DNA of 64,000 nt from Xanthostigma xanthostigma. Taxonomy: Eukaryota; Arthropoda; Insecta; Raphidioptera; Raphidiidae. Location: NCBI GenBank assembly GCA_963575645.1, contig OY754467.1:32857108-32921107 (forward strand). The letters are read 5' to 3'. The notes below the pieces were generated by a model, which was not told where the DNA came from, made no database searches, and saw only the letters and a list, made by a program, of their open reading frames with translations. The stretch's first letter is position 1. The number at the start of each line of letters is the position of its first letter. Position numbers and translations under genes: made by a program. Of this stretch, positions 17,586-64,000 are shown in pieces.

Positions 17586-17881
17586 TCAGAGATGCCCAAA
17601 CTACTTAGAAAGATGAGAATTAAAGTATATTTAATCCAGCCCTCGCGCTCGGCCCGCCAATTGCACAGCCCGCGCTAGGAGCGAGCTGAGCCAACAGCAG
17701 GGGTATGAACCAATGGTATGACGGGCGACGGTAGTATTGTATCGATCCCGCATCAAGATGGCTGTGGAAAAGCTAATGCTGGCGGTGACGGTGTGATGTG
17801 AGACATATGGATACGTTATTGCTATCAATTGTGGTGATGTTCAAAATATAGACATTAATCAATCATTCTGCACCATTGCAG
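17586..17881 (+). promoter_or_regulatory. Region immediately upstream of the NPDC1-like start, partly a repeat remnant
   Basis: These roughly 300 bases are less AT-rich than their surroundings and contain several CpG dinucleotides at 17640-17780. The left edge (CAGAGATGCCCAAACTACTT, 17589 on) resembles a hAT terminal sequence, so part of the GC-rich block may be a transposon remnant and not a promoter. No clear TATA box or initiator was found. The transcription start could equally be in an upstream non-coding exon. Confidence 0.25.
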
Positions 17882-17882
17882 T

Positions 17883-17958
17883 ATGCATGCAGTGCTTTTA
17901 TTGTCATGTTTGGTGACTATTGTTAATCAGGCGCTTGGCGAATTGGAGTATTATCCAG
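17883..17958 (+). CDS. NPDC1: NPDC1-like exon 1: start codon and signal peptide
   Basis: ATG at 17883 opens 25 codons plus one base, followed by the donor GTGAGA at 17959. The peptide has a hydrophobic core (AVLLLSCLVTIV) and a plausible cleavage after ALG, then ELEYYP. The leftover G joins AG from exon 2 to make Glu26. An in-frame TAA lies at 17856-17858 and no ATG lies between it and 17883, which supports this start. The bases just before the ATG (CATTGCAG, ending 17881) could also be an acceptor, so a 5' UTR intron may end one base before the start codon. Confidence 0.8.
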
Positions 17959-20900: not shown

Positions 20901-23900
20901 ATAAAGAAAGAAAAATTATTAAAAACAATATTATTTCAAAATGTATTATTGATATTTTTTGTTAATATATTGTCTGAAAAATTGGTCGATAATTTTATTT
21001 ATTGAATATTATATATTATATTACTTAAATTTTCCGTATCTAATTGAGCATTGAGAGAATTTTTATTTGATTTTATATGTAGGTAACATTTCCGAAATAT
21101 TTCTTTTAAAAAAATTAGTTTCATTATCTAAAATTTTTATATCATCCCAATTAATTTTGTGTTCAAATTCTAATTTGTGTTTAGTTATTACATTATGTTT
21201 GTCAGGGATTAATTTATGATTATTCTGGTGTTCTCTTATTCTTGTTTTAAGAGCTCTTTTTGTTTGACCAATATAATTCTTATTACAATTTTCACAATTA
21301 ATTTTATATACAACATTATGCTTTTGTAATTTATTAAATTTATCTTTTCCCTTTTTAATAATTTTATCAAGTTTATTTTTAACATTAAAAACAGTTTTTA
21401 TATTTAAATTTTTAAGAAATGAATTAAATTTTAGTGAAATATTTTCGAAAAAAGGAATTACTATAAAAGGACAATCAACATTATTAACATTGTTTTGTGA
21501 ATTTTGACTTTTTGTTAATTTATTAATTCTAATTTTGATAAATTTATTTATAAATTTGAGAGGATAAGAATTAGCAAGTAGGATTTGACGAACTAAATTA
21601 AAATTATCTAAGTGAAATTTTGGTTTAGATAATAAAATAGATTTATCAATAAGATTATAAACCATAGCTATTTTTTTATTTATCATCCAATAAATAAAAA
21701 TTGATAAATAAAGGTATTTTTTTCTTAATAATATTTATAACCTTACTTATTAAAGCCCATACAGAACTAATTTTTGGTACCTATAGTACCTTAGTTTCAC
21801 TATCTACCAACTTTGCAACTACCATGAAAATATGCACTTTCTCTGGACAACTGAGAGATGACACGTGTCCAATGCAAGCGTGGACTGCAAATGAAGTTTA
21901 ATTAGAATTGTCGTCCAATCAATTAATACCATATTATTGAAATACGTGTTGGCATTGCATAAACGTACTTCAATGTTTAAAATGTTGATAATCTAATAGT
22001 ATGGACAAATATCCATATTATAAATATTTAGAAAATGTCAATATATAGGTACATCGTGTCACAATTTTGGCCGCGCTAATCTCTGAAACCACTTAACCGA
22101 TTTGAATGAAGTTTTGTAAATGCGTTTTGCCTGGTGCAACTTACGCTATAGGATAGTTTTTATTAAATATTTTGTACAGAATTACAGGGTTTTTTTAAAC
22201 CTGTTTTAGTAACATGTAACTGATAAAGTTTACTCAAAGCTATTAGTTCAGAAGCAAACAAAAAAAAAACTGTTTTAGTACCAAGTAGCGACATCTGTTA
22301 GAATTTACTCAGAGCTATTGGTTCAGAAGCAAATCTGGTAGAATTTGCTTAAAGCCATTAGTTCAGACGCCGGACGAAATACATTTTGCAGAATTATATC
22401 TATCGCGCCCGGGTGAAACCGGGACGGATCGCAAGTTATTATATAAAATAATTATTTATTTACTATACTAGCGACTCGGTTCGGCTTCGTCCGAATTTGT
22501 AGATTGTAAATAATGTAATTTATAATGATCAACAATGAGAAACAAATAGTAAACGGTAAAATTTCGTTTTAAATTCGTGGTAGTTTTCATAGCTCGCCTG
22601 AAATGGTTTCTTTGACATCAAATTAAAAGAATACCTAAATAAATTCTGAAGTGGAGCTATTTTAAGACTTAATAGTGTATCTTAGTATGTCATCAAATGA
22701 GGACTCCTCTAATTGTTTTCGCGTGTTCGAATCGGGGTTTTTTATTCTAAAAATAAAAATTATAGTTTCATGAAGCCAAATATATAATATTTTAAGTTGC
22801 GTGATTAAAGTGTAAAATTTACATCGGTAATTATATAAAAATAAATATTATTCTGAGATAGGTATGTTTTATCATTCCAACCCTACAAGTGGAGAGGGTA
22901 CTAATTTAGGTCAAAATTCGTTTTTCACATATTCTTTTACAATAATTTTCTTACGATTCCATTCTATAAAATTGAACCATTTTAAAATTGATTCGAGTTC
23001 ATAACTTTTAAAATTGTAACTGAAAAAAGTAAGGAAAAATTTGGTGCGTAAACATTTATCTCTGTCTCGGTTTAATAGGTCATTTTTATAAAAAAAAAAC
23101 TGATAAGTAGATATCTCTGTACATCCTTTCTGCACGCACTCGATATACAAATGCGTGGGAGTTTTCAATAAATGCTACTTAGACATCATTTATTTGCACG
23201 AAATATTTATGAAAAATATATACAGATAAAAGTAATAATATATACATCCTTGATATCTAGTAGTCAATGACTGAAGTAATAAAATATGATTATGAGCCAG
23301 TGATTGTAGAATATTAGGAACAATTTACCGATAATAATACTATTTCAATGGCTGTCTGATATAGAAGTTATCTTTGCGTTGAACGCTTTCTGTAAAAATT
23401 TACAAATTCGCGGATAAAGGCTGGAAAATGGCATGTTTTACACATTTATTTCGTGATAAAAGTGACATGCCTCGTTATAATTTCCTAAAAATATTTGATG
23501 GATCCTATCAGAAATGTAGTGCTTAATACCGTAACGAAAATAACAAGATTAATGACTTTTGACATTTTTTACCCGCATCAATATTAATATAGCAGCTTTA
23601 TTATGTATATTTTTTTCTGTATATATAAACATGTTTAACTTCTGCGTCTATATATACATTGGCATGGCGCAGTGAGATAACCAACTTTATTCCTAAATAG
23701 CTTTTTTGCGTTTATCATATTAATTATGATTTAACGGTTTTATATTATGTATAGAAGCATGGAATCAAAATCAATTAACAATCATTCATTTGCTAACACC
23801 AAATTATTTTTAGCTGCATACTTGTATGTGAGATAAATTTTTTCCACGATTCATAGTTTTACTTATTTATGTACTCGCGATTTCAACCCCTCGATTCGTG

Positions 23901-26900: not shown

Positions 26901-29900
26901 AAGTTTTTTTATTAGAGCTACTATATAATAGTGAAAAAATCTATTACACACCTCAAGCTGGTCGAAAGGTGGTAAATTGTTAAAACAACATACATGAAAA
27001 ACCTTCCTTCATCGTAACATTCTATTGGATCAACACTACTTTATACTGAAGACATAGAATATAATATTATGGCAGCTTTTTCCGTGCTTCTTTTATTACA
27101 AGCTCCCAGGTTCTTACCCGAGAACAGGTTGAAGTATCAATTGAATTTTCAATATAGAATTAAATATATTAATTAAGAAAGGAATATACAAGTATAAATT
27201 ATTAATTTGGTGCTAATACATTAAATAAATAGATCCACAAATTGAGAAATTAATTATAAAAAAACCCGAGGTACAAAAACGACACTAATTAAAAGGAAGA
27301 GAACATCAAGACGCAGTAGGTGGGAGTCTAATTTGTGTTTTTCTTTTGTTTTTGAATGAACCACCATAATACGTTACGTCTTGAGATTTTCTGACTTGGT
27401 TTCTTCCTTTTAATTAGTCTTATTTTCGTGCAGTTAGCTTTTTTTTAATTTTTTTAGTAATTATTTTTTTAATTTGCTGCTTGAAGTATTGGCATAAGCA
27501 CTTTGTATATTATTAAAAAAACACGTTATTAAATAGTGATTCCACTCCTGTATACCGGCTTATATCATTTTAACTCAGCAATTCTATTTTTTTATCACTA
27601 AGTGTTTCCTGTTTTGCTTTTGACATGGCTACCTACCTTTTAATGTTTCAATGCACTTCAAACTCTATAAATATACTTACAATATTTTAAAATGAATATT
27701 GGAAACATAAAATCAGTGTCTGTTGTAGGACGGTCTATAAATACGCACTTAGGTACTTCTTTTAATGTTATCAATGTTTCCATTTATAGCCCCTCGAAAA
27801 ATTATTTGTATTATTTCTAGTGATGCCATTCGAATAGTGATTTTGCCGAATACCGAATAGCACAAGAGCCCGTAACACTAAAACCCTATGGATCTCCGAA
27901 TAGGCCGCCAGTTCATGGATATTTGGGAAATTTAAACCCTGCTTAAAAGAAAAATACAATGGTTGGCAGGCTAGAGTGAATCGGACCGTGAAAAAGGGGT
28001 AACTTCCGTTCACCCAGAAAAACGGTTAGGTATTCTATGAATCTCCGAATAGAATGTTGTTTACTTTATTTTGAAGTTTACGTGCTTAAACTCGGTAGGT
28101 TGGCGGGTTCCGGCGGGCCGAAACCCCCGCCAAGCGCAATTGAATTTTTGACAGAAATTTTTTATTACATAAATGGAAAGATCGCATACAAGTTTTATAG
28201 CAAAACTACGTTTATTTTATTTTTTTACCTCATAATTAAAAAGTTATATGGATTTTAAAAATACTTTTTAACTAAGTTTATTTTGTGTACATGTATAGGT
28301 ATTATAGGTACAACTAACCATGGATACAAAGCTACAAAAACATTACGACGCCAACGGAACTTAGCTAAAAAGTAATTTTAAATTCCATTTTTAATTATTA
28401 GGTTATAAAATAAAATAAATGTAGTTCTGCTATAAAACTTGTTTGTAATCTTTTCATTTACTTATGTAAAAAAATTCATTAAAAAATTCAATGGCTTTTT
28501 TTTCAATAAAGAGCCCGCCAACCCACCACGAAACGATTTTAAAAGTTAAAACCTTTCATTTAAATGTCATTTCAATCTATTCGGTTATGAGGTAAGAATA
28601 CCTATTTTGCGAAATAACTTAAGACGCGGTTGACGGGGACTTCGGCCCATTGGAACCCGCCAACCATACGAGTTTGAGCACGTTAATAACGTAAACTTCA
28701 AAATAAAGTAAACAACAATCTATTCGAAGATGCATAGGATAACCGTTTTTTTTTTTTTTTTTGGGTGGCCAGAAGTTACCCCTTTTTCAAGGTCCGGCCC
28801 ACTCCAGCCTGCCAACGATTGTATTTTTTTATTAATCAGGTTTTAAATTTTCCAAATATCCGGGAATTGGCCTATTCGCGAGATCCATAGGGTTTTAGTG
28901 TTACGGGCTCTTGGGCTAGAATATTCGGCCACGTTCTCGGTCGAAGCGCCGAATATTTGCCGGTCGAATTTTCGGCAAAATATGTGTAGGTACATTTCAC
29001 GGGTGACAGGTTATGGCCTGTTTCATTACGGTGCGTGCGGTAGCAACGCGGTGCAACGGGCGTTTTTGTCTCATTTACAGATAGATTGTATCACGACACG
29101 CATTATTTGTTCATCATATCATATCATATCATATTTTTCATATTAATTAATTAATATTATAAATGCGAATGTAAGTTTGTTTGTTACGCTTTCACGCAAA
29201 AACTACTTAACCGATCATCATGAAACTTTGCACATACACTCTTGAAGGTATTAGAAGTAACATAGGATACTTTTTATTAAAAAAAAATAAAAATTTTTTA
29301 TGAAAAATAAGCAAATTTGTACCTCAACCCCTGATATGCATGTCAAAAGTCGATTTCCATATCAGTCGCGGGCGTAGCCGCGGGTAGCGGCTAGTTGTTA
29401 TATAAAATTGTGTTACTAATAGTCCTTATTTTATTACTAAAAAATATCACTGTTTGTTCAACAAAAGCTTTAAAAAATGGTATCATTTAATAGAAAATCG
29501 CAGATTTTTAAGTAATATGAGCGATTTTTTTTCGTGATTTGATATTCGGTATTCGACCAAATACCGAATACATATTGAAAAAAGTAGCCAAATAGGCCGA
29601 ATACCGAATAGTATCCGAATATTCCTGGCATATTTAATTATATTAATTTCATTAAAGTTTTGAGCATAATTTTTTACTGTTTTTCAGAGTATCGGAAACC
29701 AGGCGCTATTTCCAAATGGAGTAATGGTAAGTATCGATAACTAAAATATTTTTAAAATAATGTTGAATATTTCAAAGAGTCCTACGGTATAGTCCGTAAG
29801 ACTAAATATAGATACAGTTATATCTAGCTAAAATTTGCTATTATTATTGTTATGACACACCCATTGTTACAATGCAACATAAGAGAAATATTCAAATCTT

Positions 29901-47900: not shown

Positions 47901-50900
47901 AGTATTCAGAGGTCATACTTTTTTTAAAAATATAAATCATTGTGCTTTTACATTTTTTAATTTACCATTTATTTAAAATGAAATACCTTTGTACGTGCCC
48001 CAAACATTTTCAAATTTGCGTGTGTGAGAAAAGAAAACGAGAAATTTCGTTCAACATTTTGTGTTTATTTCACTTATCTAATACCAGTCTAAACTCCCAT
48101 GACACAAAAAGTTACCCCAAGAACACCTCAAAATTATAAAGTGAAAATGGCTGAAAAACATGTCAGAAACATGTTACGCCCGCCAGACTAGTAAAAATTT
48201 GTTAATTATTATTTTTTATGAATTTTTGAATTTAAAAAAGAAAACATGATTTTACTTTCCAAAACACCTGCTGGATATTTATACAATTTGTAGTAAATAA
48301 TGTACCATTTTTGAAAAAATTTGTCTGGCTGACAATTTTTGTTAATAAATTTGTCAGGCTTCATTTGTTACAAATTTTTTTTTATGAAGTCTGTCACAGT
48401 AAAAAACATTTTTTTGCTGACAGACCAATTTTTATGCATAAAATAGATGTCAAACCTTCTTTCAGAAAAAAATTAAGGTAGTGTTTTGACACGGCCCTTG
48501 TAAAAGCTGATTTGTTTATGAAAAAACGCTGTCACCGCGCTTAAAAATTGAATCTGGCATGGTAAAAAACAAAATTTTGATGAAAAATGATTAAAGTATA
48601 TAAAAGGGATCTACCGTATTAATTTAGAATTAAAAAAAAAACATTTTTTTCTAGTTAGCAACGATTATACCATATTTTTTCATTAATAAATGTGGTCGCA
48701 TTTAATGAAAAAATATGGTATAATCGTTGCTAACTAGAAAAAAAATTTTCTTTTATTCCAAATTAATACGGTAGATCCATTTTATATACTTTAATCATTT
48801 TTCATCAAAATATTGTTTTTTACCATGCCAGATTCAATGTTGAAGCGCCGTGACATTTTTTTTTCATAAACACATCAGCTTTTACAAGGGCCGTGTCAAA
48901 ACACTACCTTAATTTTTTTCTGAAAGAAGGTTTGACATCTATTTTATGCATAAAAATTGGTCTGTCAGCGAGAAAATGTTTTTTACTATGATAGACTTCA
49001 TAAAAAAAATTTATAACAAATGAAGTCTGACCAATTTATTAACAAAAATTGTCAGCCAGGACAAGTTGTATTAGATAGAAGAGATCTTAAACTTTATTTA
49101 AAAAAAAATTCAAGGAGGTGTTATGAAATGCATTTTCATAAAAAAAATAATGTATAACAAATGAAGTCTGACAAATTTATTAACAAAAATGGTCAGCCAG
49201 ACAAATTTGTTCAAAAATGGTACATTATTTACTACAAATTGTATAAATTTCAAGCAGGTGTTTTGGAAAGTAAAATCATGTTTTTTTTTTTAAATTCAAA
49301 AATTCATAAAAAATAACAATTAACAAATTTTTACTAGTCTGGCGGGCGTAACATGTTTCTGACATGTTTTTCAGCCATTTTCACTTTATAATTTTGAGGT
49401 GTTCTTGGGGTCACTTTTTGTGTCATGGGAGCTTAAACTATACATTGTGTGTCTACATTTAAAAAAAATACCTTTGAGACGTCTATTTTAAAACCATGTC
49501 TGCCTACATATTATATGATTGATCAAACAAAATAATAATGACATGTAAATTAGTGCCTTTGTTTAAATATAAATTTAAATACTAATTTCTAATGATATAA
49601 TTTTTTATTCTGAGGAACACTACAATAGTCTTAAAAATCAATACAAATATAAATGACTATTCAAAAAGAACCGTTTTATTTTTTGCACCGGAGTGTATAA
49701 AGATTTGTAGGTACTACATACCGTGGGCTATAAAATCGTATTAAGTTCGAAATTTTCTGTATTTTCAGACGATTGTTTAATAGGATTACATGGAATTGAA
49801 GAAACTCAGATGCTATTTGCTAAAATTGACATATTTTTCGTTGAACATATTAATTTTTTCTGACTGTATTCAGTTGATTTATATTAAAAATATGGAAGTA
49901 TTAAATTCCTTTTGTCATACCGAACAAACCGTGCGGCTGCTAACATTGGAAGCGCATAATGTCACTTATATACAGAATGTTTTCGATCTACTTACTCAAT
50001 TTTTAAGGATGATGATACTGCGGTCAAAAGAAGATGAGTAGTGACAAACCCCTTAGTAAAAGCTAAATGATAATTTTACTGTACTTTCCCATATTAGCAC
50101 AACGTCAACTAAAGGCCGCTGCACACGAAGCTGGGTTTGCCGCTAGATTCCTTGCTGGATTTAACTGCTAGTTTTCAAGCGTCGGTTTTTGTGATGGTTT
50201 TTATGTGTTGGCTTCTCACGATGCATGTTATTAAATTTGCTTTGTAGATGAGTTTGGTGCGCGCGCAGTGATAGAATGTTAACAAAAGTGGACGTTTATT
50301 GTCTCTGAACAGAACACATTCTATGGAGCGATGTTTGTTTGCGGGCGTTTGTCCATGTCGCCCACTGACAAGAAACTGCTTCCTGATTGTGCTTGCTCAA
50401 AACAGGCAGACGAATTTTGAATTCGATCTTGTCACCTCGCAGGCGAGCCCGCAGTGACGTCATTTCCATCTTCATATAACCCGCACGGCAGCCAGTCCAT
50501 GTCCCAGCAGTGTTTCTAGCGGCAAAACCAGCCTCGTGTGCAGCGGCGTTTATAGAGTACAGTCAGTCTCGAACACACAGTATATTATGTCTCGTACGTT
50601 GAAATGGTGCAGCGTGCGATATTAAGAGCCCTGATGGGATCGTGTGGAATTGTATTGTTGAATTCCTATTATATTATTTAGTCAGACGTGTCACTCCGGT
50701 TAAGTACAGGGTGAAGCTCCGGGATGGAGTGGTTTTCAGAACGATACTGTAGGCTTCATTTTAGGCATACTATAAAAAAATATCAATAAACACAGCTTAA
50801 CAATTTCAATTTATGAGAAGTGGTGTTCAATACAAAATGGAACACTTATGCGAGATCACTTCGATGGTCGTACATCTGTCTCAGGCGATTTTCACTGAAA

Positions 50901-56900: not shown

Positions 56901-59900
56901 GTTAGTTTTTTATTAGGTTTTCAATAAATTAAATTATCGACCAATTTTTCAGACAAATATATCAACAAAAAAATATAATTAATACATTAACGTTTCGATC
57001 CGGATTTGGATTTTCTTCAGAATTGATCTCAAAATAGAAAAAGTAATTAATATTTAGTTTCTATTTATTTTTAATGAAATTAGTGGAATATTTTTATTAG
57101 GTTTACCTGAGATTTACATCAGTATCGAGTATTGAATCATTACTAAAATAATTACACAGTAGCGTATCTCGTGAAAGTCAGAACAATACAGGTCGCAGAA
57201 ACAAATGAAGACTATTCATGACACGTGTTTGTTTATTCACTTGTTACAAAGTAGAACAACACGTTTATGTTTGACATAACCGGTGGCGCTTGTCTTTCGA
57301 GCGAAATATGTTTTATTTTTCTCTCATAAAAATGTAGAAGCCATTTAAAAGCACAAAGAAAAATGATCTAGTTTCTTTTTTGTATTAAAAATAGTGATGT
57401 TTTATATCCTTCCATTTTTAATACTGAAACTTTTAACAAAATGTGGTGGAAGTACGTGTTTTGGTGGTGGACTGACGGGTATCTATATTACTAAAAGTTT
57501 TTTTTTTTAAGTTACGTGGGTTCAAAGAAGGATTTGCTACGACTTTTTGTTGTTATAAATGCAAAACTGAATATTTGAAGGTCTAGTTTTTACTTAAAAA
57601 AACATATGTCACCACGCCGCTTTTTTAGTTCTCATTTTCCAATGGACGCTGCCCTAAAGTCAACATAGTTGTTTCTAAGATTTTTTTATTCTGATTTTAA
57701 ACATCGGTGCAAGCTATACATGAACTATTCGTGATTCTGCAGTTGTAAAGAAATAAACAATTAAATTTGTTTATTACAATTATTGATCGCGCTAGAATTT
57801 TTAAATTCTGATAACTTTTTTGTTCTCTTTAGGATTTAATTTTTTAAAAGAATATTTAATACAGTAACGAAATATTCATTCGATATTCAACTATTTTCTT
57901 TTCTGTTTTCACAATTGTAATCTAACCAAGAAAATACTACAAAAATACTTGTTTAAAGTAGTACTGTCGGTTAGAGAATTACTGTTCAGAATTAAATGAA
58001 ACTAGGCATATGGGTGCATTTTAATAAGATAATGAACCACCTAAAATTTCAAAAAGCTACAGAGAACCAAAAAAAGTAATTAATATTAAACGTTTTTTGC
58101 CTTTAACATTGAACCTTATGAGAAATCACAGATTTTATTAAATTTTACAAAAAGTACTGTTCAGATTTCAATGAATTTTATATCAACAATAAAAAAAAAT
58201 TTCATACAATTGAGGTTCGGAGCATGTGATAAGAGTAATAAACAAAAATGTATCTACTTTTTATTTCGTCATTTATTATATGTAGCAACTCTGACATTTT
58301 GAAAACACACGTATAAATTATAGCTTTATACGCAAATTCTAATATTTCGAGTGAAACACAGTTACTGTCAGTATACCTCTATCCAGAAGCGTAGCGTGCC
58401 TTGGCGGGGCCCCGTATAAAAATTTGTTTGGGGGCCCTTAGGAAGGGTAAAGATTTCTCACAAAAAAAAATGTTTGCATAAAATTAAAAGAAATATTTAT
58501 TCATTATAATTATCTATCTGTCACTTTTTCCAAAATTTTTACAAGCAATTCATCATCGTATCGTATGTACATCGATTATTGTGGGATTCCCCCGTTGAAG
58601 TAAATGACTTAAACGGGAAAATCCCGCAGCCCGCGATAACCGATGTAGGGTGTTGCCAACTTTTGAACGCACGCTTCACGCGGGAAAAAAAGAAATTGCT
58701 TTTTTTGACTTTTTTGAAATAAAAAAAAAATTGGGAAGTTTTTATTAATTTTTGCTTACGCTCGTTGGGGGCCCCCGTGGCCCGGGGGCCCCGTACAATT
58801 GATACGGCAGATACGGCGGTAGCTACGCCCCTGCCTCTATCTCTTACTTTTACGTGGCGTTGTCAAATCTAAAAACTAGGTTATGTCGAATGTGTCTACT
58901 CCTGAGCACACATTACTTATGGTATCGACAATACTACCTTAATCCAAGTCGTAGCTCAAATAACAACCAAATAAAAATTACTAAATTATACTCTATATTT
59001 AAACGTATTGCGTTTATTTATCAAACAAGTCATTTTATATCGGAGCAAAGAAGAAAATGGTGCAATTACATATTGAGTCGTTATACTTGGAACAAAATCA
59101 ACCTGACAAATGTTACATAAAAATCGGTCTGAAATCGTTTCTTTTTTTCGTAAGTGACGGTTATATCGGCTGTATTAGTCTTGACATACATTAAAGATTA
59201 TACGAGCACATAAACGTTCGGTTTTATTCCACATCTGTATTTTACACGAGCGCTAAGTAATTGATAAGCAGAGACCGTCCGCCCTGTCCATAAACTGTTT
59301 TACGCACCTTCGAATACGGGCCGAGTTTAATATGTAGTAAAGTCAGAGCTGAGGAATATCTTGTATCTAAAGGCCGCTGCACACGATGCTGATTTTGCCA
59401 CCAGATACCTTGCTAAAGGCTGCTAGGCTTCAAGCGTGCTGTGGCGCTAGGTTTCGCGATGGCTTTTATGTGTTCGCTTCACACGATGCGTGTATTGAAC
59501 TTAATCAGCGTTATTTATTTACTTTTGCGGTTTGTACATCAATACTGTTTTGCAACTAAGAGACTTTTGTATCATAGTCCATAGATACTTCCAAAAACGA
59601 AGTTACTGCTGAAAAGTATCTGGTACCTAAACGCCGCTGCACACGAGGCAAGCTTTACTGCTAGAAACGTGCGGGCTTCGAAGATGGCAATGACGTCACT
59701 GCGGACTCCCCTGCGAGGTGACAAGATGGATTTAAAAATTAGAACCGAGCCTATGTTTCTTGATTGTTTTAAGCACGAACCAATCAGCAGTATGTTGTCA
59801 CGTGGGCAACATGGACAAATGCCCACAAACAAACACTGCACCATAGCGTGTGTTCTGTTCAGAGACAATAAACGTCCACTTTTGTTAACATTCTATCACT

Positions 59901-62245
59901 GCGCGCGCAACAAACCCATCTACAAAGCAAATTTCAATACATGCATCGTGTGAAGTCAACACATAAAAGTCATCACAAAAACCAGCGCTTAAAAACTAAC
60001 AGTTAAATCTAGCGGCAAAACCAGCCTCGAGTGCAGCGGCCTTAAAATAGATTTATTGTTATCTTAGATACTTGTAGAGTTACTTAGATATTTGGAGTAA
60101 CTAACTTTTGAAAGGTATGCTTTTAAATCTTCCGTGTTTTGAACAGCGTTGTGTTTTAAGAGCTTGATTTATTCATTAAAATATAATTATAACTGTATGC
60201 CACTGGCCGTCTTAAAATCGACGTTAAATAGATAAGGACCAATAAAACACGAGCATTGACTATAAACAAACCGTGTTGTACATCTTAGTTATAAAATAAA
60301 TTGATTCTATTTTAAGATATACCTCTATAAGAACCATATTTTGCATATAAAATAAATAATATCTTTAGGCGATATAAAAGATATAAAAGAATGAATTATT
60401 ACCGATATTTTGAATCTCTGCACGTATTGTTAAATGTGACTATAAAAATATGCTGAAAACGCATTGCTCAATTTTACGATTTTAATATTTTATTAAAGAT
60501 GTAAAACTGGTGAAATAAAACACTCCCGGAAAAAAGAAATAGGTGACTTTGAGTTCTTCCTGGGAGAAAGGAAAATTAAGGAGATACATAATATGTTTGA
60601 ATTAATTTAATAGAATAAGAATGCGAAATACAAAAGTAATTTTTCTACATTAATTAGAAGAAAGGGTAAAAATACTGTGAAGTTTTACTTAAAGTCATTT
60701 TGGTAGGACTGGACTTACAAATATGAAAACGTTAGTTTGTGGAAATCGGTGTACCTACATACTGAAGGGTGTATTAAATTTAGTGTAGATGTTGGATTGA
60801 TATTAGTATTGAAATTAAGTACAAAATATTATTTCCAGGGAATAAATTTTTTATTTTGCCCAAAAAGAAAGTTTAAAGTCAGCTGCACACGAGGCTAAAT
60901 TTGCCGCTAGGTTCCTTGCTATAGATTTCACTACTAGCTTTCTAGCGCTGGTTTTCTTGACTACTATTATGTGCTCGCTTCACACGAGACGTCCTTACAA
61001 GCTTGCTCTGTAGGTAGATTCGGTGCGCGCGCAGTGATAATTATAACGCTAACAAAATTGCATCTTTATTGTCTCTGAACAGAACACACACTATATGGCA
61101 TTTGTAGTGTCTGTTTGTTCCCAAGTGTCAAGATACTGCTTCCTGATTGGTTCTTGCTCATACCTAGCAAGAAAAATAACCCCTGTTCTAATTTTAAAAC
61201 CCATCTTGTGAACTAGCAGGCGAGCCCGCAGTGACGTCATTTCCAGCTTCGTACCTAGCCTACCGGCCAGCAGAACTCCAAGCAGTGTTTCTAGCCTCGT
61301 GTGCAGCGGCCTTAAGTTCATATAATTAAGTCACACTGCCTGTAATAGCAAATGGACCAGTGATTCCCAAAGTGGTGTATATCGACCCCCAGGGGTCGAC
61401 GACAACTTGCAAGAGGTCCATGTCAGCGGGAAAAAAAATTGGGGGTCCATGAAATGAAAATGGGGGTCAACGATAGTGAATCTCCTAACAAAAAAAGAAA
61501 CAAACTGGACATCGTTAACCGAAGATATTTAAGATTAAATCTAACTAAATTGATGCCAAATTTTGAAAATTTATTATTAAAGTAGATATCATGTTCATCC
61601 CTCACACTAAAATCATTTATTTTTTGATTAGTTATTTTATGTAACAGAAAGTAAATTTTAATTTGATTCGTTTAATTTGAATCTAATTAATAAATGTATA
61701 AAACTAAACATTTCACACTACATTTCACTACCATTATAAATTTCAATCGTTCAAAGTGAGTAGCACTATACCGGTTGTCAAAAATACATTTGAAATCAAT
61801 GAATTTGCAAAAAGATAAGCAGGGGGTCTACCTAAAACCGAAAAACATGGCAAGTGGTCTACGAGACAAAAAAGTTTGGGGAGCTCTGAAATAGACTATA
61901 TTGTCGGCAGGGTTTGGCACATAATTATAATTATTATTTCGGCAATCAGAACCGAAGTTATAATATTTTGATCCAAAGTTTATGTAATAATGCAAACCGT
62001 GCTTTAGTGATGGTAGAGCATAAATGATTATGTAAAGGTTATCCGATGAACAAACTAACATATATCGTGTGTTGTTCTGACAGTTTGCAGAAGAATGCGA
62101 AGGCAGCGGCCGACGTGGAATACCCGGCTTACGGTGTGACGGGGCCCAATAAAGATGTGTCGCCGTCCGGTGACAGACGGCTGGCTCAGTCCGCACAAAT
62201 GTACCATTACCAACATCAGAAGCAACAAATCATCGCCATGGAGAA
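17883..62245 (+). CDS. NPDC1: NPDC1/CAB-1 family single-pass membrane protein, five coding exons, 3' end missing
   Basis: Joining 17883-17958, 29688-29726, 30612-30830, 32676-33012 and 62084-62245 gives 833 nt, or 277 codons plus two bases, with no stop. All internal borders are AG at the acceptor and GT at the donor, and phases agree (1, 1, 1, 2, then 2 out). Residues 1-19 form a signal peptide (MHAVLLLSCLVTIVNQALG). Residues 20-194 are an acidic, proline-rich ectodomain, about 195-221 a transmembrane helix, and from 222 a cytoplasmic segment with YPAYGVTGPNKD and AQSAQMYHYQHQKQQ. That segment is the part I recognise as the NPDC1 family (vertebrate NPDC1, C. elegans CAB-1). Family knowledge: these are neuronal membrane proteins, and CAB-1 binds the Rab3 exchange factor AEX-3. 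A role in neuronal vesicle traffic is inferred. Vertebrate proteins are about 325 residues, so roughly the last 40-60 residues lie beyond 64000. Confidence 0.88.
17959..20645. other. Intron 1 of the NPDC1-like gene, first part
   Basis: The sequence is mainly AT-rich without a gene. A TAGA/GATA microsatellite lies at 18536-18556. TTCACTGCAGTGA-type words and GACTAGCTAYYGGTGACTAA occur twice (19627-19690 and 19870-19936), a local duplication. A short block at 19490-19520 (GGTCCGAGTTCTAACCCTGC) is faintly tRNA-like but not foldable as a tRNA. Confidence 0.5.
18536..18556. repeat. GATA microsatellite
   Basis: Repeated TAGA units. Confidence 0.85.
20646..21699 (-). mobile_element. 5'-truncated Penelope-like element
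   Basis: Runs on the minus strand from a truncated 5' edge at about 21690 to a 3' region at 20646. The 3' region contains ATTATCGACCAATTTTTCAG (20659) and its complement about 300 bases away (CTGAAAAATTGGTCGATAAT, 20976), so it can fold. It also has AACGTTTCGATCCGGATTTG followed by CTTCTTCAGAAC, a feature of Penelope-like ends. TCCAATAAATAAAA occurs at both borders (20646 and 21686) and may be a target duplication, although the internal inverted copy suggests part of it belongs to the element. Confidence 0.75.
21063..21686 (-). pseudogene. Penelope-like element protein, C-terminal part with GIY-YIG endonuclease domain
   Basis: 207 codons without interruption. Residues 1-60 (VYNLIDKSILLSKPKFHLDN and on) match the linker after the reverse transcriptase in Penelope-like proteins. 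Residues 124-160 contain the endonuclease: VVYKINCENCNKNYIGQTKR followed by ALKTRIREHQ. It has the VVY and YIG strands, the CxxC inserted between them that is typical of this family, the catalytic R (TRIREH) and the following EH. The reverse transcriptase is missing, so the ORF is a 5'-truncated copy. It is still open, so the insertion is fairly recent. Confidence 0.8.
21700..22076. other. Intron 1, no recognisable feature
   Basis: AT-rich; nothing supported. Confidence 0.5.
22077..22436 (+). mobile_element. Helitron remnant, plus orientation
   Basis: GCCGCGCTAATCTCTGAAAC and CACTTAACCGATTTGAATGA are typical of the 5' half. The 3' end GCGCCCGGGTGAAACCGGGA then CGGATCGCAAGT matches the GC-rich hairpin terminus, with CTAGT decayed to CAAGT. 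Inside, a unit with AGCTATTRGTTCAGAAGCAAA is repeated three times (about 22237, 22312, 22352). Confidence 0.6.
22469..22520 (-). mobile_element. Helitron 3'-end fragment, minus orientation
   Basis: ACTAGCGACTCGGTTCGGCT followed by TCGTCCGAATTTGTAGATTG is the same 3' end as at 36022 and 13042, here with an intact CTAG. The rest of the element is not recognisable. Confidence 0.55.
22521..24364. other. Intron 1, mostly featureless; third copy of repeat K at 22950-23010
   Basis: CATTCTATAAAATTGAACCA and GATTGATTCGAGTTCATAAC (22960-23000) match repeat K at 5727 and 17406. The block at 24030-24110 is an eroded match to the TTGTTTTTGGGGAGAATCGGCGCATGC part of the 14.2-kb foldback. Nothing else is supported. 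Confidence 0.45.
24365..24606. mobile_element. hAT MITE, 242 bp, with 8-bp target duplication
   Basis: The flanks are CACTAAAG on both sides (24357-24364 and 24607-24614), a perfect 8-bp duplication. Termini CAAGGGCGTAGATA and TATCTACGCTTTTG are complementary with two changes. The subterminal regions are also complementary in style (GGGGGGTGGGGGTAA and TTACCCCCTTTTAGCC). There is no coding capacity. Confidence 0.85.
24615..26742. other. Intron 1, unassigned region with small open frames
   Basis: It holds an open frame of 120 codons at 25447-25809 (no recognisable domain) and a 34-codon frame starting at ATG 26056 that ends in a GTAAGC donor-like site. I cannot assign either to a gene. TCGATTT words are frequent at 25840-26030. 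Confidence 0.4.
26743..27047. mobile_element. Penelope-like terminal repeat fragment, family 2, copy 1
   Basis: CGATGAAGGAAGGTTTTTGG, GTTTCGCTAGTGGCCAACGT, and CATCTTCAGGGCC in the left part. The right part ends AAAACCTTCCTTCATCGT then CTATTGGATCAACACTACTT. The same pieces occur at 53163-53345. An ACGTTTCG plus TCTTCAG arrangement is typical of ends of Penelope-like elements, but no protein is present, so the family is inferred. Confidence 0.5.
27048..27817. other. Intron 1, no recognisable feature
   Basis: A weak inverted pair (CTAATTAAAAGGAAGA at 27285 and TCTTCCTTTTAATTAG at 27401) brackets about 115 bases and may be a small MITE remnant. Confidence 0.45.
27863..28913. mobile_element. Foldback element, 1.05 kb
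   Basis: CAAGAGCCCGTAACACTAAA at the left and TTTAGTGTTACGGGCTCTTG at the right are exact complements. Pairing continues through GGCAGGCTRGAGTG / CACTCCAGCCTGCC and AACTTCAAAATAAAGTAAAC (28684), the complement of 28061-28080. The arms total about 270-300 bp each. The centre has a second pair, GGTTGGCGGGTTCCGGCGGG and its partner at 28650. Confidence 0.75.
29111..29141. repeat. CATAT microsatellite
   Basis: Four to five consecutive ATCAT/CATAT units directly left of the Helitron start. Confidence 0.8.
29151..29394 (+). mobile_element. Non-autonomous Helitron, plus orientation
   Basis: Starts TAATATTATAAATGCGAATG with the common GTTTGTTTGTTACGCTTTCA and AACCGATCATCATGAAACTT words. Ends with the GC-rich hairpin GCGGGCGTAGCCGCGGGTAG and the terminal CTAG followed by T. 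The TCTATAC start has been lost into the adjoining CATAT repeat. Confidence 0.7.
29688..29726 (+). CDS. NPDC1: NPDC1-like exon 2 (39-nt exon)
   Basis: The exon lies between the acceptor TTTTTCAG (ending 29687) and the donor GTAAGT (29727). It reads AG, then YRKPGAISKWSN, then one base G. It is phase 1 on both sides and joins exon 1 to exon 3 without a stop, so that YYP-E-YRKP and KWSN-G-VEVP are continuous. At 39 nt gene finders can easily miss it. Its support is the strong splice sites and the exact phase fit. I do not recognise a motif in the peptide itself. Confidence 0.8.
29727..30611. other. Intron 2 of the NPDC1-like gene
   Basis: 885 bases from the donor GTAAGT to the acceptor CGACAG. 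At 29921-30000 there is a palindromic patch (GTCACCGTTGGGACTTTAAC and on) related to the sequence at 51210. The rest is largely the repeat at 30115-30545. Confidence 0.8.
30115..30545. repeat. Interspersed repeat H, copy 1
   Basis: Begins with a hairpin, GGGCCGAAAGTTTGATATTC paired with GATATCAAACTTTCGGCC (30192-30209), around a GCGCAGTGC core. It continues through CATAAAAACACAGATA, TTGTTCGCGACTATTA and CGAACGTACGTACTTCCCGC to TTTCGATCGAGGT. The same order and orientation occurs at 40690-41180. Confidence 0.75.
30612..30830 (+). CDS. NPDC1: NPDC1-like exon 3: membrane-distal ectodomain
   Basis: 219 nt between the acceptor CTCGACAG (ending 30611) and the donor GTAATT (30831). It encodes residues 40-111, starting VEVPTDYELQQLVDFL and containing KRPR, a VPPPYVLPNRDQ stretch and DPSDPRYYLDS at the end. 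It is clearly less AT-rich than the flanking introns, as expected of coding DNA. The segment has no cysteines, so the ectodomain is probably not disulphide-stabilised here. The upstream border sits only about 65 bases after the end of an interspersed repeat (30115-30545). Confidence 0.85.
31573..32387. mobile_element. 815-bp insertion flanked by GTAGGGAC duplications
   Basis: GTAGGGAC occurs exactly at 31565-31572 and 32388-32395. The insert has ends CATAGAGATAT and ATATCTCTATG, exact complements. Its left part (31577-31740) is repeat M, and its right part carries a LINE reverse-transcriptase fragment. An 8-bp duplication would fit a hAT-type transposition of the composite, but the CATAGAG ends are not a hAT signature I recognise. 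Confidence 0.65.
31770..32294 (+). pseudogene. C-terminal reverse-transcriptase fragment of a jockey/CR1-type LINE
   Basis: An open frame of 174 codons up to TAG 32292-32294, entered without a start codon. It reads LNSAIYAIRRVSDVVSIEAA, ECLISYGVLLWGNSTDSNRV, LQKRAVRAMARVSTKEHCKP and KILTLPSLFILHALLYVK. This order (the SAIYAIR helix, ISYG-x-xLWGNS, LQKRA-R, then LTLPSL) is diagnostic of the region after the polymerase fingers and palm in jockey and CR1 family proteins. Endonuclease and catalytic palm are missing, so it is a 5'-truncated dead copy. A short A/T-rich tail and an ATTCT microsatellite follow at 32350-32380. The frame has no internal stop, which suggests modest age. Confidence 0.8.
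32676..33012 (+). CDS. NPDC1: NPDC1-like exon 4: membrane-proximal ectodomain and transmembrane helix
   Basis: 337 nt between the acceptor TATTTCAG (ending 32675) and the donor GTAAGT (33013). It encodes residues 113-223. The first part is highly charged (DDIRPEPKTTTKISRPNKK, then Glu/Arg/Asp-rich sequence) and probably unstructured. KIKIVSGQATEDRKP then leads into the hydrophobic run IAGIYIIAIVAGVSAAATVG and LIAFAVGWY, the single membrane span, with the positive side (ectodomain lysines and arginines) just before it. The exon ends in phase 2 (AA), completed by T from exon 5 to give Asn224. Ala/Gly-rich small residues in the helix (AGVSAAATVG) could favour helix packing. Confidence 0.88.
33013..36021. 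other. Intron 4 of the NPDC1-like gene, first part
   Basis: No coding feature. The blocks 33470-33960 and 34090-34860 have many AAAATTT and TTTTTCG runs in a style common to old insect repeats, but I found no second copy within the window. A short palindrome-bearing element lies at 35027-35261. Confidence 0.5.
35027..35261. mobile_element. Foldback with Penelope-like terminal words, 235 bp
   Basis: AGAAGATTAAAGGATGAAGC at the left and its partner TTTCATCCTTTAATCTTCT at the right. Inside, TTTTATTGCATTTTATTGTC then TGACGTTTC pairs with GAAACGTCAGACAATAAAAT. The spacer holds GCTATCTTCGGAGAATC. The ACGTTTC plus ATCTTCGGAG arrangement is again like ends of Penelope-like elements. Confidence 0.6.
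36022..36272 (-). mobile_element. Non-autonomous Helitron remnant, minus orientation
   Basis: CGGTTCGGCTTCGCTCGAAT then TTGTAGATAG at the left and CTTTATAATATTAGTGTAGC at the right, the complement of the TCTATACTAATATTATAAAG start. It is a close relative of 13042-13263. The foldback at 36281 begins only eight bases further on. Confidence 0.7.
36281..37173. mobile_element. Foldback element, 893 bp, GC-rich arms
   Basis: CAAAGCAGTGGCACGTCAAG at the left and CTTGACGTGCCACTGCTTTG at the right are exact complements. Pairing extends about 215 bp with very few changes (GGCAACCGGATGGCGAGTGG, CAGGGGCGGCGATATGGGGG). The arms are much richer in GC than the rest of the window. The word AGGCAACCG recurs inside. 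The high arm identity points to a recent origin or to gene conversion between arms. Confidence 0.8.
37174..37986. other. Intron 4, no recognisable feature
   Basis: AT-rich; the small open frames at 37522-37722 and 37868-38092 have no recognisable domain. Confidence 0.5.
37991..38742. mobile_element. Ginger-like DNA transposon remnant, TIR-bounded, 4-bp target duplication
   Basis: Termini TGTTACGGTCTATACCCGAA and TTCGGGTATAGACCGTAACA are exact complements. TATA flanks both sides (37987-37990 and 38743-38746). The inverted arms are about 200 bp and contain repeated AAAACTAGTTTTGCGCAT words. The centre carries an integrase N-terminal fragment. TGT...ACA ends, 4-bp duplications and a KRBA2-type integrase all fit Ginger-type elements. 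Confidence 0.65.
38323..38502 (+). pseudogene. N-terminal fragment of a Ginger/KRBA2-type integrase-transposase
   Basis: ATG at 38323 opens 59 codons to TGA 38500-38502: MQGEIEFHLVRLLEASDTKK, then KHNYLTEVKEANLLKVELKP and LSAKQYERINNKYQ. After a shift the sequence continues DVERLIKKRKEDSDAILVL (38503-38560). The order (Y-x-EV-x-EA, then K-x-LSAKQYERINNKY, then a DVE-x-LIKK segment) resembles the region before the zinc finger of KRBA2-like integrases in Ginger transposons. The frame break and loss of the DDE core make it a pseudogene. The assignment rests on pattern memory only. Confidence 0.45.
38743..39681. other. Intron 4, no recognisable feature
   Basis: Nothing supported. Confidence 0.5.
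39682..39969. mobile_element. Short foldback with Penelope-like terminal words
   Basis: TAATAAAAATCGCAGGATTG then TGGACAAAAAGTTATTTATT at the left; AATAAATAACTTTTTGTCCA then CAATCCTGCGATTTTTATTA at the right. The arms are 40 bp and perfect, with CGACGTTTCGTCTGTATATT next to the left arm. The flank GATGGACACGATATCTAATA (39968 on) recurs in reverse at 43502, so a second, decayed copy is there. Confidence 0.7.
39970..40689. other. Intron 4, no gene; CT/TG microsatellite at 40484-40518
   Basis: A run of TCTC then TGTG dinucleotides. Otherwise featureless. Confidence 0.55.
40690..41180. repeat. Interspersed repeat H, copy 2
   Basis: Same order as 30115-30545. The opening hairpin (ACACCACACTGGTCGAAAGT to TTTCGACCAGTGTGGTGT) is better preserved here. 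Copies differ by small indels and roughly one base in ten. Confidence 0.75.
41416..41490. repeat. Repeat F fragment, reverse orientation
   Basis: GGTTGTCTGTAAAGTCGGTT then TACGGACGATAGTTTTACGT and GATAACGTATTCCG, the complement of the right end of 2398-2640. Confidence 0.65.
41785..42275 (+). repeat. Interspersed repeat G, copy 2
   Basis: Matches 9590-10050 throughout. This copy has an extra CGTCGCGCGCGCGCC stretch at about 42070 and a local duplication of ATATAAATTTGTATAAAA (42125 and 42153). Confidence 0.7.
42283..42360. repeat. ACGCGTT / GGAACGTTA minisatellite inside a repeat F fragment
   Basis: Seven-base units GTTACGC and GTTATGC alternate about six times after three AACGTTAGG units. 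It then passes into the other end of repeat F (ACGTTACACTTTTTCG to CGTTATCACGTCAAAA, to 42447). It looks like an expansion of the AACGTTACG words in the repeat. Confidence 0.75.
42448..44690. other. Intron 4, no recognisable gene; decayed element end at 43500
   Basis: ATTAGATATCGTGTCCATCG (43502) is the complement of the flank at 39968. Otherwise AT-rich sequence with no support for a gene. Confidence 0.5.
44691..46690. other. Intron 4, mostly featureless, with a CGTA microsatellite and a short hairpin
   Basis: CGTACGTACGTACGTACAG at about 44710 resembles the edge of repeat K. At 46019-46085 GCGCAGTAGCTA pairs with TAGCTACTGCGC around a 40-base loop. The open frames here (44642-44950, 45080-45367) have no recognisable domain. 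Confidence 0.45.
46691..47190. repeat. Repeat with CTAGCGCCGCTAGYGGG edges and an internal imperfect hairpin
   Basis: CTAGCGCCGCTAGCGGG (46717) and TTAGCGCCGCTAGTGGG (47164) bracket about 450 bases. Within, GATATGGTAGCAATGGAAAT then CATTAATGCATTGCAGAAAA (46982) pairs imperfectly with 47066-47118, which reads ATGATTTTCTGTATTAATGA then TTCCCATAGCTACTATATC. Confidence 0.5.
47191..48091. other. Intron 4, no recognisable feature
   Basis: Nothing supported. Confidence 0.5.
48092..49432. mobile_element. Very long palindrome, 1.34 kb, nearly spacer-free
   Basis: The left arm from AACTCCCATGACACAAAAAG pairs with the right arm ending CTTTTTGTGTCATGGGAG. The centre is at about 48689, where ACCATATTTTTTCATTAA meets its complement after only about 15 bases. 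The arms are about 600 and 740 bp; the excess in the right arm is a tandem copy of about 135 bases (ACAAATGAAGTCTGACCAAT at about 49016 and ACAAATGAAGTCTGACAAAT at 49155). No coding frame of note. Confidence 0.85.
49433..50112. other. Intron 4 segment with an unexplained coding-like stretch at 49767-50041
   Basis: After a strong acceptor-like sequence (TTCTGTATTTTCAG, ending about 49769) there are two overlapping open stretches. One reads DCLIGLHGIEETQMLFAKID to a TGA near 49862. The other reads SDCIQLIYIKNMEVLNSFCH and continues to TAG at 50039-50041. Together they look like one protein with a single frame shift. I recognise no family. Confidence 0.3.
50113..50549 (+). mobile_element. PIF/Harbinger-like MITE, copy B
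   Basis: Starts AGGCCGCTGCACACGAAGCT after TAA (50110-50112) and ends GCCTCGTGTGCAGCGGCGT before TTA. Same orientation as copy A. The flanks differ (TAA and TTA), so one flank has mutated. Confidence 0.75.
50550..51159. other. Intron 4, no recognisable feature
   Basis: Nothing supported. Confidence 0.5.
51160..51475. mobile_element. Foldback with tRNA-like B-box, 315 bp
   Basis: GTAGCTACTGTTTGCTACAA at the left and TTGTAGCAAACAGTAGCTAC at the right are exact complements. The inner part has GGGGTTCGTATCCCGACGGT (51370), close to a polymerase III B-box (GGTTCGANNCC), preceded by AACTCAGTCCGCCGCGAGAG. The left arm has the decayed complement. This could be two tRNA-derived SINEs head to head. 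A related piece lies at 29921. Confidence 0.55.
51755..52110 (+). mobile_element. Non-autonomous Helitron, complete
   Basis: Starts TCTATACTAATATATGAAGC after A and ends CACCCGGGTGAAACCGGGCG then GGACCGCTAG before T. It therefore has the 5' TC, the 3' hairpin and CTAG, with A/T flanks. Internal words AACGCGCTAATCTCGGAAAC and ATCGAGGAAGGCTATAGGCT are widespread in insect Helitrons. No Rep/helicase. Confidence 0.85.
52111..53162. other. Intron 4, with a one-ended hAT remnant at 52442
   Basis: CAGTGATTCTCAAAGTGTAG (52442) is a typical hAT 5' end and resembles the element start at 61358. No matching right end was found. Open frames on both strands at 52755-53047 overlap each other and have no recognisable domain. 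Confidence 0.45.
53163..53345. mobile_element. Penelope-like terminal repeat fragment, family 2, copy 2, as a palindrome
   Basis: AAGATGAAGGAAGGTTTTGG then TTGAGGATCATAAAATAAGC and GTTTCGCTAGTGGCCA are followed after about 25 bases by the full complement (TGGCCACTAGCGAAAC through CCTTCCTTCATCTT). The arms are about 75 bp and almost perfect. AGTGTTGATCCAATAGAATA on the left is the complement of the right flank at 27026, so it belongs to the element. Confidence 0.65.
53346..54280. repeat. Interspersed repeat N, copy 1, with a nested element
   Basis: GGAGCGGACTTACAAATTTT, GTAGTTTGTGGATTTG, AAGGGTGTATTTAATTTGGT and, further right, AGTTCACATAATAAAGCCAC and TAGCAAATACACTATATTGT. The same order is seen at 60700-61950, there split by a Harbinger MITE and a hAT element. 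Here it is split by a different block (about 53730-54070) beginning CCGTTGTGTGGTTTTAAGAA. Confidence 0.65.
54281..55428. other. Intron 4, with a CpG-rich patch at 54290-54480 and tRNA-like words at 55010-55110
   Basis: The patch contains GCGGCGTCGCGGCATGCCGG and GATTGGTCAG and could be a repeat or a buried regulatory region. At 55010-55110 GGTGTTCGAACCCCTATCAT is the complement of a polymerase III B-box word. It is paired with GGTTCGTGTCTTGACAATGA about 80 bases on, like a decayed SINE pair. Confidence 0.4.
55429..55488 (+). other. Candidate 60-nt cassette exon of the NPDC1-like gene
   Basis: Bounded by an acceptor ATGTTCAG (ending 55428) and a donor GTAAGTATG (55489). It is phase 2 on both sides, so it would insert exactly 20 residues between exons 4 and 5 without shifting the frame. 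The peptide is NNVKECVDNLKTSIVEMKNE, helical in character. No NPDC1 protein I know has such an insert. The alternative is a chance splice-like stretch or the first exon of another transcript (ATG at 55421). Confidence 0.25.
55517..55744 (+). mobile_element. Non-autonomous Helitron, plus orientation
   Basis: ACACTAATATTATAAAGAGA at the start, ATGAGGAGGGTACTCATCCG and AGGAAGGACATAGGCTAAAT in the body, and GTGAAGCCGGACCGGACCAC then CAGT at the end (CTAGT decayed to CCAGT). Confidence 0.65.
55745..56921. other. Intron 4, with two small tandem hairpins
   Basis: A GC-richer patch at 55785-55990 carries CATGTTATTTAACGGAGTAT, shared with 5240. The two hairpins at 56288-56390 are listed separately. 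Otherwise featureless. Confidence 0.5.
56288..56390. repeat. Two adjacent near-perfect hairpins
   Basis: First: TACCTATATTTTGATAAGAA pairs with TTCTTATTAAAATATAGGTA. Second: AAAATTACGATTGGTACAAT pairs with ATTGTACCAATCGTAATTTT almost without a loop. They lie about ten bases apart. Confidence 0.8.
56922..57110 (+). mobile_element. Penelope-like 3'-end fragment, same family as 20646
   Basis: AAATTATCGACCAATTTTTC then AGACAAATATATCAACAAAA, AACGTTTCGATCCGGATTTG and TTCTTCAGAATTGATCT match 20653-20760 closely. No open frame accompanies it. Confidence 0.7.
57111..58375. other. Intron 4, no recognisable feature
   Basis: Nothing supported. Confidence 0.5.
58384..58833. mobile_element. hAT MITE, 450 bp, with perfect 8-bp target duplication
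   Basis: CCTCTATC flanks both sides (58376-58383 and 58834-58841). Termini CAGAAGCGTAGC and GCTACGCCCCTG are complementary with two changes. Subterminal GGGGCCCCGTATAAAA pairs with CCCGGGGGCCCCGTACAA-type sequence at the other end. There is no transposase. Confidence 0.88.
58842..59367. other. Intron 4, no recognisable feature
   Basis: Nothing supported. Confidence 0.5.
59371..59500 (+). mobile_element. PIF/Harbinger-like MITE, partial copy C
   Basis: Starts AGGCCGCTGCACACGATGCT after TAA (59368-59370) and follows the family through TTTTATGTGTTCGCTTCACA, then diverges. The right end is missing. Confidence 0.6.
59631..60042 (-). mobile_element. PIF/Harbinger-like MITE, copy D, reverse orientation
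   Basis: TAA at 59628-59630 and 60043-60045. Termini ACGCCGCTGCACACGAGGC and GCCTCGAGTGCAGCGGCCT. The internal order is reversed relative to copies A, B and E (GACGTCACTGCGGACTCCCC near the left, TCTGTTCAGAGACAATAAAC in the middle). Confidence 0.78.
60046..60700. other. Intron 4, no recognisable feature
   Basis: Nothing supported. Confidence 0.5.
60877..61312 (+). mobile_element. PIF/Harbinger-like MITE, copy E
   Basis: TAA at 60874-60876 and 61313-61315. Starts AGTCAGCTGCACACGAGGCT, ends GCCTCGTGTGCAGCGGCCT. The empty site AGTTAAGTTCAC occurs once in repeat N copy 1 (about 54105), confirming the 3-bp duplication. Confidence 0.82.
61358..61888. mobile_element. hAT-like element, 531 bp, with 8-bp target duplication
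   Basis: Starts CAGTGATTCCCAAAGTGG and ends AAGTTTGGGGAGCTCTG, imperfect complements. The flanks are AAATGGAC (61350-61357) and AAATAGAC (61889-61896), seven of eight matching. The empty site GCAAATACACTATATTG at about 54150 supports the boundaries. The subterminal GGGGGTCCATG and GGGGGTCTACC blocks are typical of this type of hAT. No intact frame. Confidence 0.82.
61897..62083. other. End of intron 4 before exon 5
   Basis: Contains the end of repeat N and a short TATAATTATTATTATTTC-like stretch. The acceptor used is TTCTGACAG. Confidence 0.6.
62084..62245 (+). CDS. NPDC1: NPDC1-like exon 5: conserved cytoplasmic juxtamembrane domain
   Basis: 162 nt with donor GTGAGT at 62246. Two acceptors lie close together: TTCTGACAG ending 62083 and TTTGCAG ending 62090. 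Only the first keeps the frame, giving N-LQKNAKAAADVEYPAYG. The rest reads VTGPNKDVSPSGDRRLAQ and SAQMYHYQHQKQQIIAMEK. This is the best conserved part of the family and the basis of the gene identification. It ends in phase 2, so at least one further exon must follow; I searched to 64000 and did not find the acidic tail. Confidence 0.9.
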
Positions 62246-62500
62246 GTGAGTACTCGATTATTTATGATCCCTTGTGTTATTCAAATTTAAAAAAATTGGA
62301 GCACGCACCTATTTCAAGAATTACGAAGCGCGACATTCACATAATATTCATGAGTTTTGACGCACTTTTGGCCGTCATTTATCTTTTTTTTATTAGCAAA
62401 AACGTATTTTCAAAAAATAAAATATTTAAAAAAATGTGTCGTTTTTGTTGGCACGTTGCCATTTTCTTACTCGACAACCATTTGTAAGTATCATTATCCA

Positions 62501-62998
62501 AGAGCTGACGACGAATTTAGGGTAGGTATGTATTTTAGGAAAGTTGAAATAATAAAAAAACAGTATTTTGTCAATCGGTGAATCTAAAAATCACGAGTCT
62601 GGCAGATCGTTTGCTGTTATTTCGCTTCTGCGCAGAATATGACATTTGCAAGAAAATAAACCAAAAAATATGTTTTAGGCAGCTTGAACTTTTTTTAATC
62701 TTTTATTTTAGCATTTATATAATCCAGAAATAAAAAACCCAGACTATTTTGTCGGTTTTAAAGTATGACCTGATCCCCCTTAAAATATTTAATTAATATA
62801 CCCAACAATTATAAACGTCTAAAATAAAAGTTATAAAAAAAAAACAAGTTGCCTAAAACATCTTTTTTTGGTTTATTTTTTTGCAAATGTCATATGCTGC
62901 GCAGAAGCGAAATAACCGCAAACGCCATTGATAAAATATTGTTTTTTTAATTATTTCAACTTGCCTAAAATACATACCCTAAATACGTTGTCAGCTCT
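62501..62998. mobile_element. Short foldback, same ends as the 14.2-kb element
   Basis: AGAGCTGACGACGAATTTAG at the left and CTAAATACGTTGTCAGCTCT at the right pair. Arms include GTATGTATTTTAGG, ATTTCGCTTCTGCGCAGAAT and ATATGTTTTAGGCAGCTTGA. It appears to be the arm pair of the 14218-16140 element without the 1-kb centre. Confidence 0.72.
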
Positions 62999-63220
62999 CC
63001 GATTATAAGTGTCAGTACCGAGTAACACTTTATCAAAGTAATGTTTCTTTATGATATTACCTTAGCGAATCTCCGCAAATTTCAGTTACTTGACCATAAT
63101 TTTGAAATCTATCACAATTATTTTTTTTATTTATTTGAAAGAAATCAAAATACATAGTATCAATAACAATATCGACCCAAATGAAATAGTTTCAAACGAT
63201 TTATACACGAAAATGATCAT

Positions 63221-63378
63221 AAAAATTAAAATAGTTACTTTTTACCACAAGTTTTATTAGCGGATGTACCTACATTCCGGGAGCTAAACTAGTTTAGTTT
63301 AGATGAGAGCATAGCTCCCGAAATGTACATCCGCTAATAAAACTGTTGTGGTAAGAAGTAACTATTTTTTATTTTTGT
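63221..63378. repeat. Hairpin, arms about 65 bp
   Basis: AAAATTAAAATAGTTACTTT then TTACCACAAGTTTTATTAGC and GGATGTACCTACATTCCGGG pair with the right arm (CCCGAAATGTACATCCGC through GTAACTATTTTTTATTTT). The loop is about 30 bases. It would fold if transcribed as part of the intron. Confidence 0.78.
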
Positions 63379-64000
63379 TTCAACCACAGTGCTCTTAATA
63401 TTTGTATGAAAATGATTATAATTTAATGTAACAGAGTATTTGGCAAGTGGTGCTTGTGTTGTGTTCTATTCTCCTTTGACTGGCAATGAATTATTTAAAC
63501 AGCTGTCACCATTAGGCATCTATTAACCAGTGTTGGAGTTCTATCAGACGTAAACCGTTCACGTTTTTATTTAAAAATAAAAATAACAGTACGGTATCAA
63601 ATAAGGGAATGGGTAAAAAACCAGTGTAATACACACTGGAATCAACCTTGGTTCGTCTTTCACATTTATGTTTTTACAATATTACACCACTAGTCATTTA
63701 ATTTTGTGTTCTAAAAAGAACAACTTTATTTTATACATTTGAAAGTAGAAATACGATCGGAAGTCTTTTTATGTGCCTGTTTAAGACCTGTAGAACTATA
63801 ATAAAAGTTAGCACTATTACAACACAAAAGCTCCGATCTTGCGTCTGTTCGATTTGTATTAAAGCTTATAAATAATGCATGACAGGTTGTACGTGGTAAA
63901 GTACATCTCCGATAGGCTTACAAAGAACTCTTCCTTTAATTCCAAGCTTAGTCGGTGGAAATACCGGTTCTTAGTGCGTCACGTTTGCTTCGAAGATAAG

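Follow-up and report, generated by a model that had tools for sequence, protein, structure and literature searches.

Vertebrate NPDC1 has a cysteine-rich N-terminal ectodomain, and the C-terminal part of NPDC1 comprises an acidic stretch and a TVYECPGLAPTGEMEV-like end. In a study of Caenorhabditis elegans, CAB-1 (NPDC1/cab-1) is presented as a Rab GEF recruitment factor for dense-core-vesicle secretion acting upstream of RAB-27, and regeneration is said to be affected by the loss of cab-1 but not significantly by that of aex-3/MADD, the Rab GEF (PMC8612575). A study of the acidic TLY motif reports that a tail peptide of human NPDC1 binds TBC1D23 at about 3 µM, and as late as 2024 still terms NPDC1 largely uncharacterized (PMC11093223). 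A search by title and abstract opening, with most subscription journals outside its coverage, found no literature on NPDC1 in insects.

The DNA analyzed here, a stretch of 64,000 nucleotides referred to as the window, very probably carries an animal NPDC1/CAB-1 gene, of which it covers the 5′ and middle portions and whose product would be a type I single-pass membrane protein with a proposed role in vesicle traffic; the locus is a new, partial and ordinary member of an already described animal family. What it shares with the family profile (PF06809) is the helix and the membrane-proximal part of the tail, positions 1–208 of the profile being unmatched and positions 290–352 unseen in the window, whereas the ectodomain, unlike that of the vertebrate protein, is free of cysteine. 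The likeness to C. elegans CAB-1 is that of a shared family name, from which a common function may be supposed by analogy.

Exon model of the locus

Exons E4 and E5 and the ATG exon E1 were located by reading the flanks of two obvious coding stretches, and the interval between E1 and E4 was subjected to a splice scan with a generic matrix written by hand, the same matrix that was used in all the chance tests described below. With thresholds of at least 4 for both acceptor and donor, which were set after E2 had been seen and before E3 had been seen, the scan returned two candidates, namely the 39-nt and the 219-nt exons that appear as E2 and E3 in Table 1.

Table 1. Exons of the NPDC1/CAB-1 gene model in the window (all on the forward strand)
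Feature	Position	Strand	Length	Phase	Splice sites	Content
E1	17883–17958	+	76 nt	1 out	donor GTGAGA	ATG, signal peptide MHAVLLLSCLVTIVNQALG
E2	29688–29726	+	39 nt, 13 residues	1/1	acceptor 6.2, donor 5.9	
E3	30612–30830	+	219 nt	1/1	acceptor 4.0, donor 4.4	ectodomain segment
E4	32676–33012	+	337 nt	1 in, 2 out		remaining ectodomain and transmembrane helix
E5	62084–62245	+	162 nt	2 out	donor GTGAGT	juxtamembrane LQK and conserved tail RRLAQSAQMYHYQHQKQQ
Next intron begins	62246..64000	+				further family motif not found

The four introns (11,729, 885, 1,845 and 29,071 nt) all have GT...AG boundaries, the phases of the junctions are 1, 1, 1 and 2, and the joined exons give 833 nt that are translated into 277 residues without a stop. 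The outer limits that an earlier note had proposed for the gene (17883–62245) agree with this model to the base, and five exons, the number that it had given, with one of 39 nt among them, were recovered with the aid of the splice scan, the 39-nt exon being E2. In the four introns no extra exon was found that has the right phase, a length of 30–600 nt divisible by three, an acceptor of at least 1 and a donor of at least 3.5; weaker ones are possible, because the acceptor of E5 itself scores only 1.1.

The introns and the rest of the window hold elements of other kinds. Intron 1 contains an ORF on the reverse strand (21066–21734) with a GIY-YIG match just below the cutoff (2.4e-4, 21.7 versus 22.6 bits), which we take to be perhaps a fragment of a Penelope-like element, and intron 3 a forward-strand ORF of 192 residues (31716–32291) without a Pfam match, which in our view is reminiscent of the terminal part of a LINE reverse transcriptase. 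Apart from the ORF of E5, ten ORFs of the window were compared with Pfam and none matched above a cutoff, and neither the Rfam nor the tRNA scan gave a hit. Two adjoining tandem arrays lie at 8647–9114 (unit of 156 nt) and 9240–9557 (unit of 64 nt); three long inverted repeats, at 11404–12692, 36277–37177 and 48086–49439, have arms of 217–331 nt that are 94–98% complementary and are perhaps foldback or MITE-like elements; and a dispersed repeat family is present at 1248–1705, 50109–50554 and 59367–61317, in several copies and in both orientations.

Helix and cytoplasmic tail

The assignment to the family comes from the last two exons. The ORF that holds E5 matches PF06809 (NPDC1) with an E-value of 3.2e-11 and 43.2 bits over profile positions 229–290 of 352, and the joined protein does so with 1.8e-12 and 47.3 bits (curated cutoff 23), through its residues 198–277 and over profile positions 209–289 of 352, thereby bearing out the NPDC1/CAB-1 identity that had been claimed from the tail motif. 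The match is limited to residues of E4 and E5, and E4 alone yields no Pfam family. Since the joined protein matches the profile both better and further than the E5 ORF, with the helix included, the E4/E5 junction is supported. An alternative acceptor of E5 at 62091, which has a better score (3.6), was discarded; its use shifts the frame, and translation then ends some 16 residues past the junction. A search of the PDB by sequence gave no match.

A pattern search of genome contigs matched 378 stretches, two of which were confirmed, while none of the 28 pattern-matched stretches from viral contigs was. The first of the two (L001, positions 1–541 of QWHO01000076.1, a metagenome-assembled genome named “bacterium CPR1”) lies at a contig edge and consists of 180 uninterrupted codons that match PF06809 with 3.7e-32. 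It encodes an NPDC1-like ectodomain, helix and tail in a locus having an overall GC content of 67%; presumably it resembles vertebrate coding sequence, and it is probably a stray vertebrate-like sequence, that is, a chimera or a contamination in a public bacterial assembly. The second (L002), of 32 residues with 50% identity and an E-value of 3e-6 in a contig of 64% GC, was taken for a chance match.

When aligned with L001, E5 scores 118, a value that none of 500 shuffles reached (maximum 45), E1–E4 together score 47 (4 of 500 shuffles as high) and E4 by itself 46 (1 of 500), whereas the score of E3, 24, was equaled by 366 of 500 shuffles and thus amounts to no similarity. The alignment runs through the helix, the W-x-x-LQK and LAQSAQMYHYQHQKQQ, and the ectodomain of L001 is unlike E3. 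These scores indicate that the helix and the tail are homologous, homology being demonstrated for this part and not for the luminal exons.

Within the 277 residues the succession of signal peptide, ectodomain, membrane helix and cytoplasmic motif is the one that had been expected. Hydrophobic residues extend over positions 1–21 and a signal peptide of about residues 1–19 is predicted by rule of thumb, with small residues (A-L-G) where cleavage might take place; by the same kind of rule the protein would have a type I topology. The luminal region, of about 175 residues, has neither a cysteine nor an N-glycosylation sequon, the sole cysteine of the protein being residue 9, inside the signal peptide, so that the ectodomain described in the earlier note as cysteine-poor has in fact none; the one cysteine-cluster pattern that was tried is absent from all plus-strand frames of the window. 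Besides the signal peptide there is a single hydrophobic stretch (193–222), which contains the transmembrane helix at about residues 195–222, with a hydropathy of up to 2.41 over 19 residues. Hydropathy and the alignment to L001 agree that this helix is directly followed by the tail W-x-x-LQ...LAQSAxMYHYQHQ, which reads here WYNLQKNAKAAADVEYPAYG...RRLAQSAQMYHYQHQKQQIIAME.

With the introns in place, no stop in 833 nt and an intact tail motif, it is highly improbable that the locus is a decayed or processed NPDC1 copy; no point supporting such a copy was found, the 3′ part being unseen within the window.

The luminal exons and the start of the gene

Neither E1–E3 together nor E3 alone matches a Pfam family, and E1–E3 rest on splice grammar rather than on homology. 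Over the whole 64-kb window, the plus strand has two open phase-1/1 exons of 24–400 nt with acceptor and donor of at least 4, namely E2 and E3, and the minus strand has none; at the same thresholds phases 0 and 2 add a single plus-strand case, which is again E2, open also in phase 0, and none on the minus strand. When the E1–E4 interval was shuffled 300 times with its dinucleotides preserved, 294 shuffles were without a candidate and six had one; a summed splice score of 12.1 was reached in one of the 300 (E2 has 12.2) and a score of 8.4 at a length of at least 219 nt in none. E2 combines a good acceptor with a GTAAGT donor and has the top summed score among the open-exon candidates, being one of 15 open 39-nt phase-1/1 AG..GT stretches between E1 and E4.

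Relaxing the thresholds and admitting all phases and lengths yields 31 candidates on the plus and 11 on the minus strand, different phases and nested pieces being counted apart. Among the 31 the summed score places E2 first, E1 (treated as an internal exon) third, E3 eighth, E4 fifteenth and E5 twenty-fourth, and the acceptors of the last two are weak (2.3 and 1.1). E4 and E5 could therefore not be found by splice score alone, and their support is homology. As to composition, E3 has a GC content of 0.50 compared with 0.34 in its flanks and E4 likewise has 0.50; windows of the same length with a GC as high amount to 1.3% for E3, 0.2% for E4 and 0.6% for E5, the GC of E1 and E2 being unremarkable (about 20% of same-length windows equally high in each case).

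The earlier statement that all phases fit holds inasmuch as the five exons do join in phase, but it does little to establish E2 and E3. Indeed, both exons are symmetric and every skipping combination that was tried (without E2, without E3, without both) remains in frame and open, so that neither can be proven by frame. The same three combinations are what speaks for a gene that lacks E2 and/or E3 or uses them optionally, with E1 joined directly to E4 or E2 serving as a cassette exon; this is unlikely, though far from negligible, in view of the fact that at the 4/4 thresholds the two are the sole open phase-1/1 exons and that E3 is high in GC. The splice tests and the GC of E3 argue for the use of the two exons, not for their constant use. 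As for an NPDC1/CAB-1 lineage in which a short, cysteine-free ectodomain made of symmetric phase-1 exons has replaced the cysteine-rich one, with E2 as a regulated (e.g., neuronal) cassette of 13 residues near the signal-peptide cleavage site, such a proposal is rather improbable.

At the 5′ end, a test for first exons (signal peptide plus phase-1 donor), the settings of which were chosen after E1 had been seen, finds E1 (donor 7.5) as the only plus-strand match in the window and one minus-strand match, which appears solely at the most lenient donor threshold (at least 4). Just upstream of the ATG at 17883 there is an acceptor-like AG (17880–17881) with a score of 3.1. If 17882 follows an acceptor, the gene would start farther upstream, in an exon that may or may not be coding; this alternative would accommodate both this score, which TTCTGCACCATTGCAG before 17882 attains and which is above those of the E4 and E5 acceptors, and the third rank out of 31 held by 17882–17958 as an internal exon. 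On the other hand, a signal-peptide-like stretch already begins at the ATG at 17883, and an upstream coding exon is therefore unneeded; such a start is rather improbable.

Extent of the gene and proposed function

ECPG, PGLA, YECP, TGEME, NPLF, DEEN and VYE[CS], which are C-terminal motifs of the family, occur in none of the six frames of the window as exact matches, a search that diverged or intron-split forms could escape. Because this C-terminal part was not found and the PF06809 match stops at position 289–290 of 352, the gene is incomplete in the window. Thus, the description of the locus as a 44-kb gene cannot stand for the whole gene, which measures at least 44 kb, the missing 3′ end excluded. 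Downstream of E5 two acceptors with a score of at least 1, at 62397 and 63086, open phase-2 stretches of 18 codons or more; neither of the two readings resembles the family tail and both were rejected as the next exon. The 3′ exons with the remaining tail probably lie beyond position 64000, and the TLY motif, we presume, belongs to that part of the tail.

If worm CAB-1 and human NPDC1 are taken as models, a role in dense-core-vesicle and endosome–Golgi traffic is likely, and our best guess is that the protein would act as both vesicle cargo and adaptor. Judging from the family, it would reside in secretory (dense-core) vesicles and in recycling carriers, where its cytoplasmic tail may recruit Rab regulators or tethers, and the traffic of neuropeptide vesicles would thereby be promoted.

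Although partial, the model obtained here is usable; it describes an animal NPDC1/CAB-1 gene whose introns are long and whose 39-nt exon may escape gene predictors. If the absence of cysteine from the ectodomain holds in orthologues, it would suggest that the conserved function of the protein resides in the helix and the tail.
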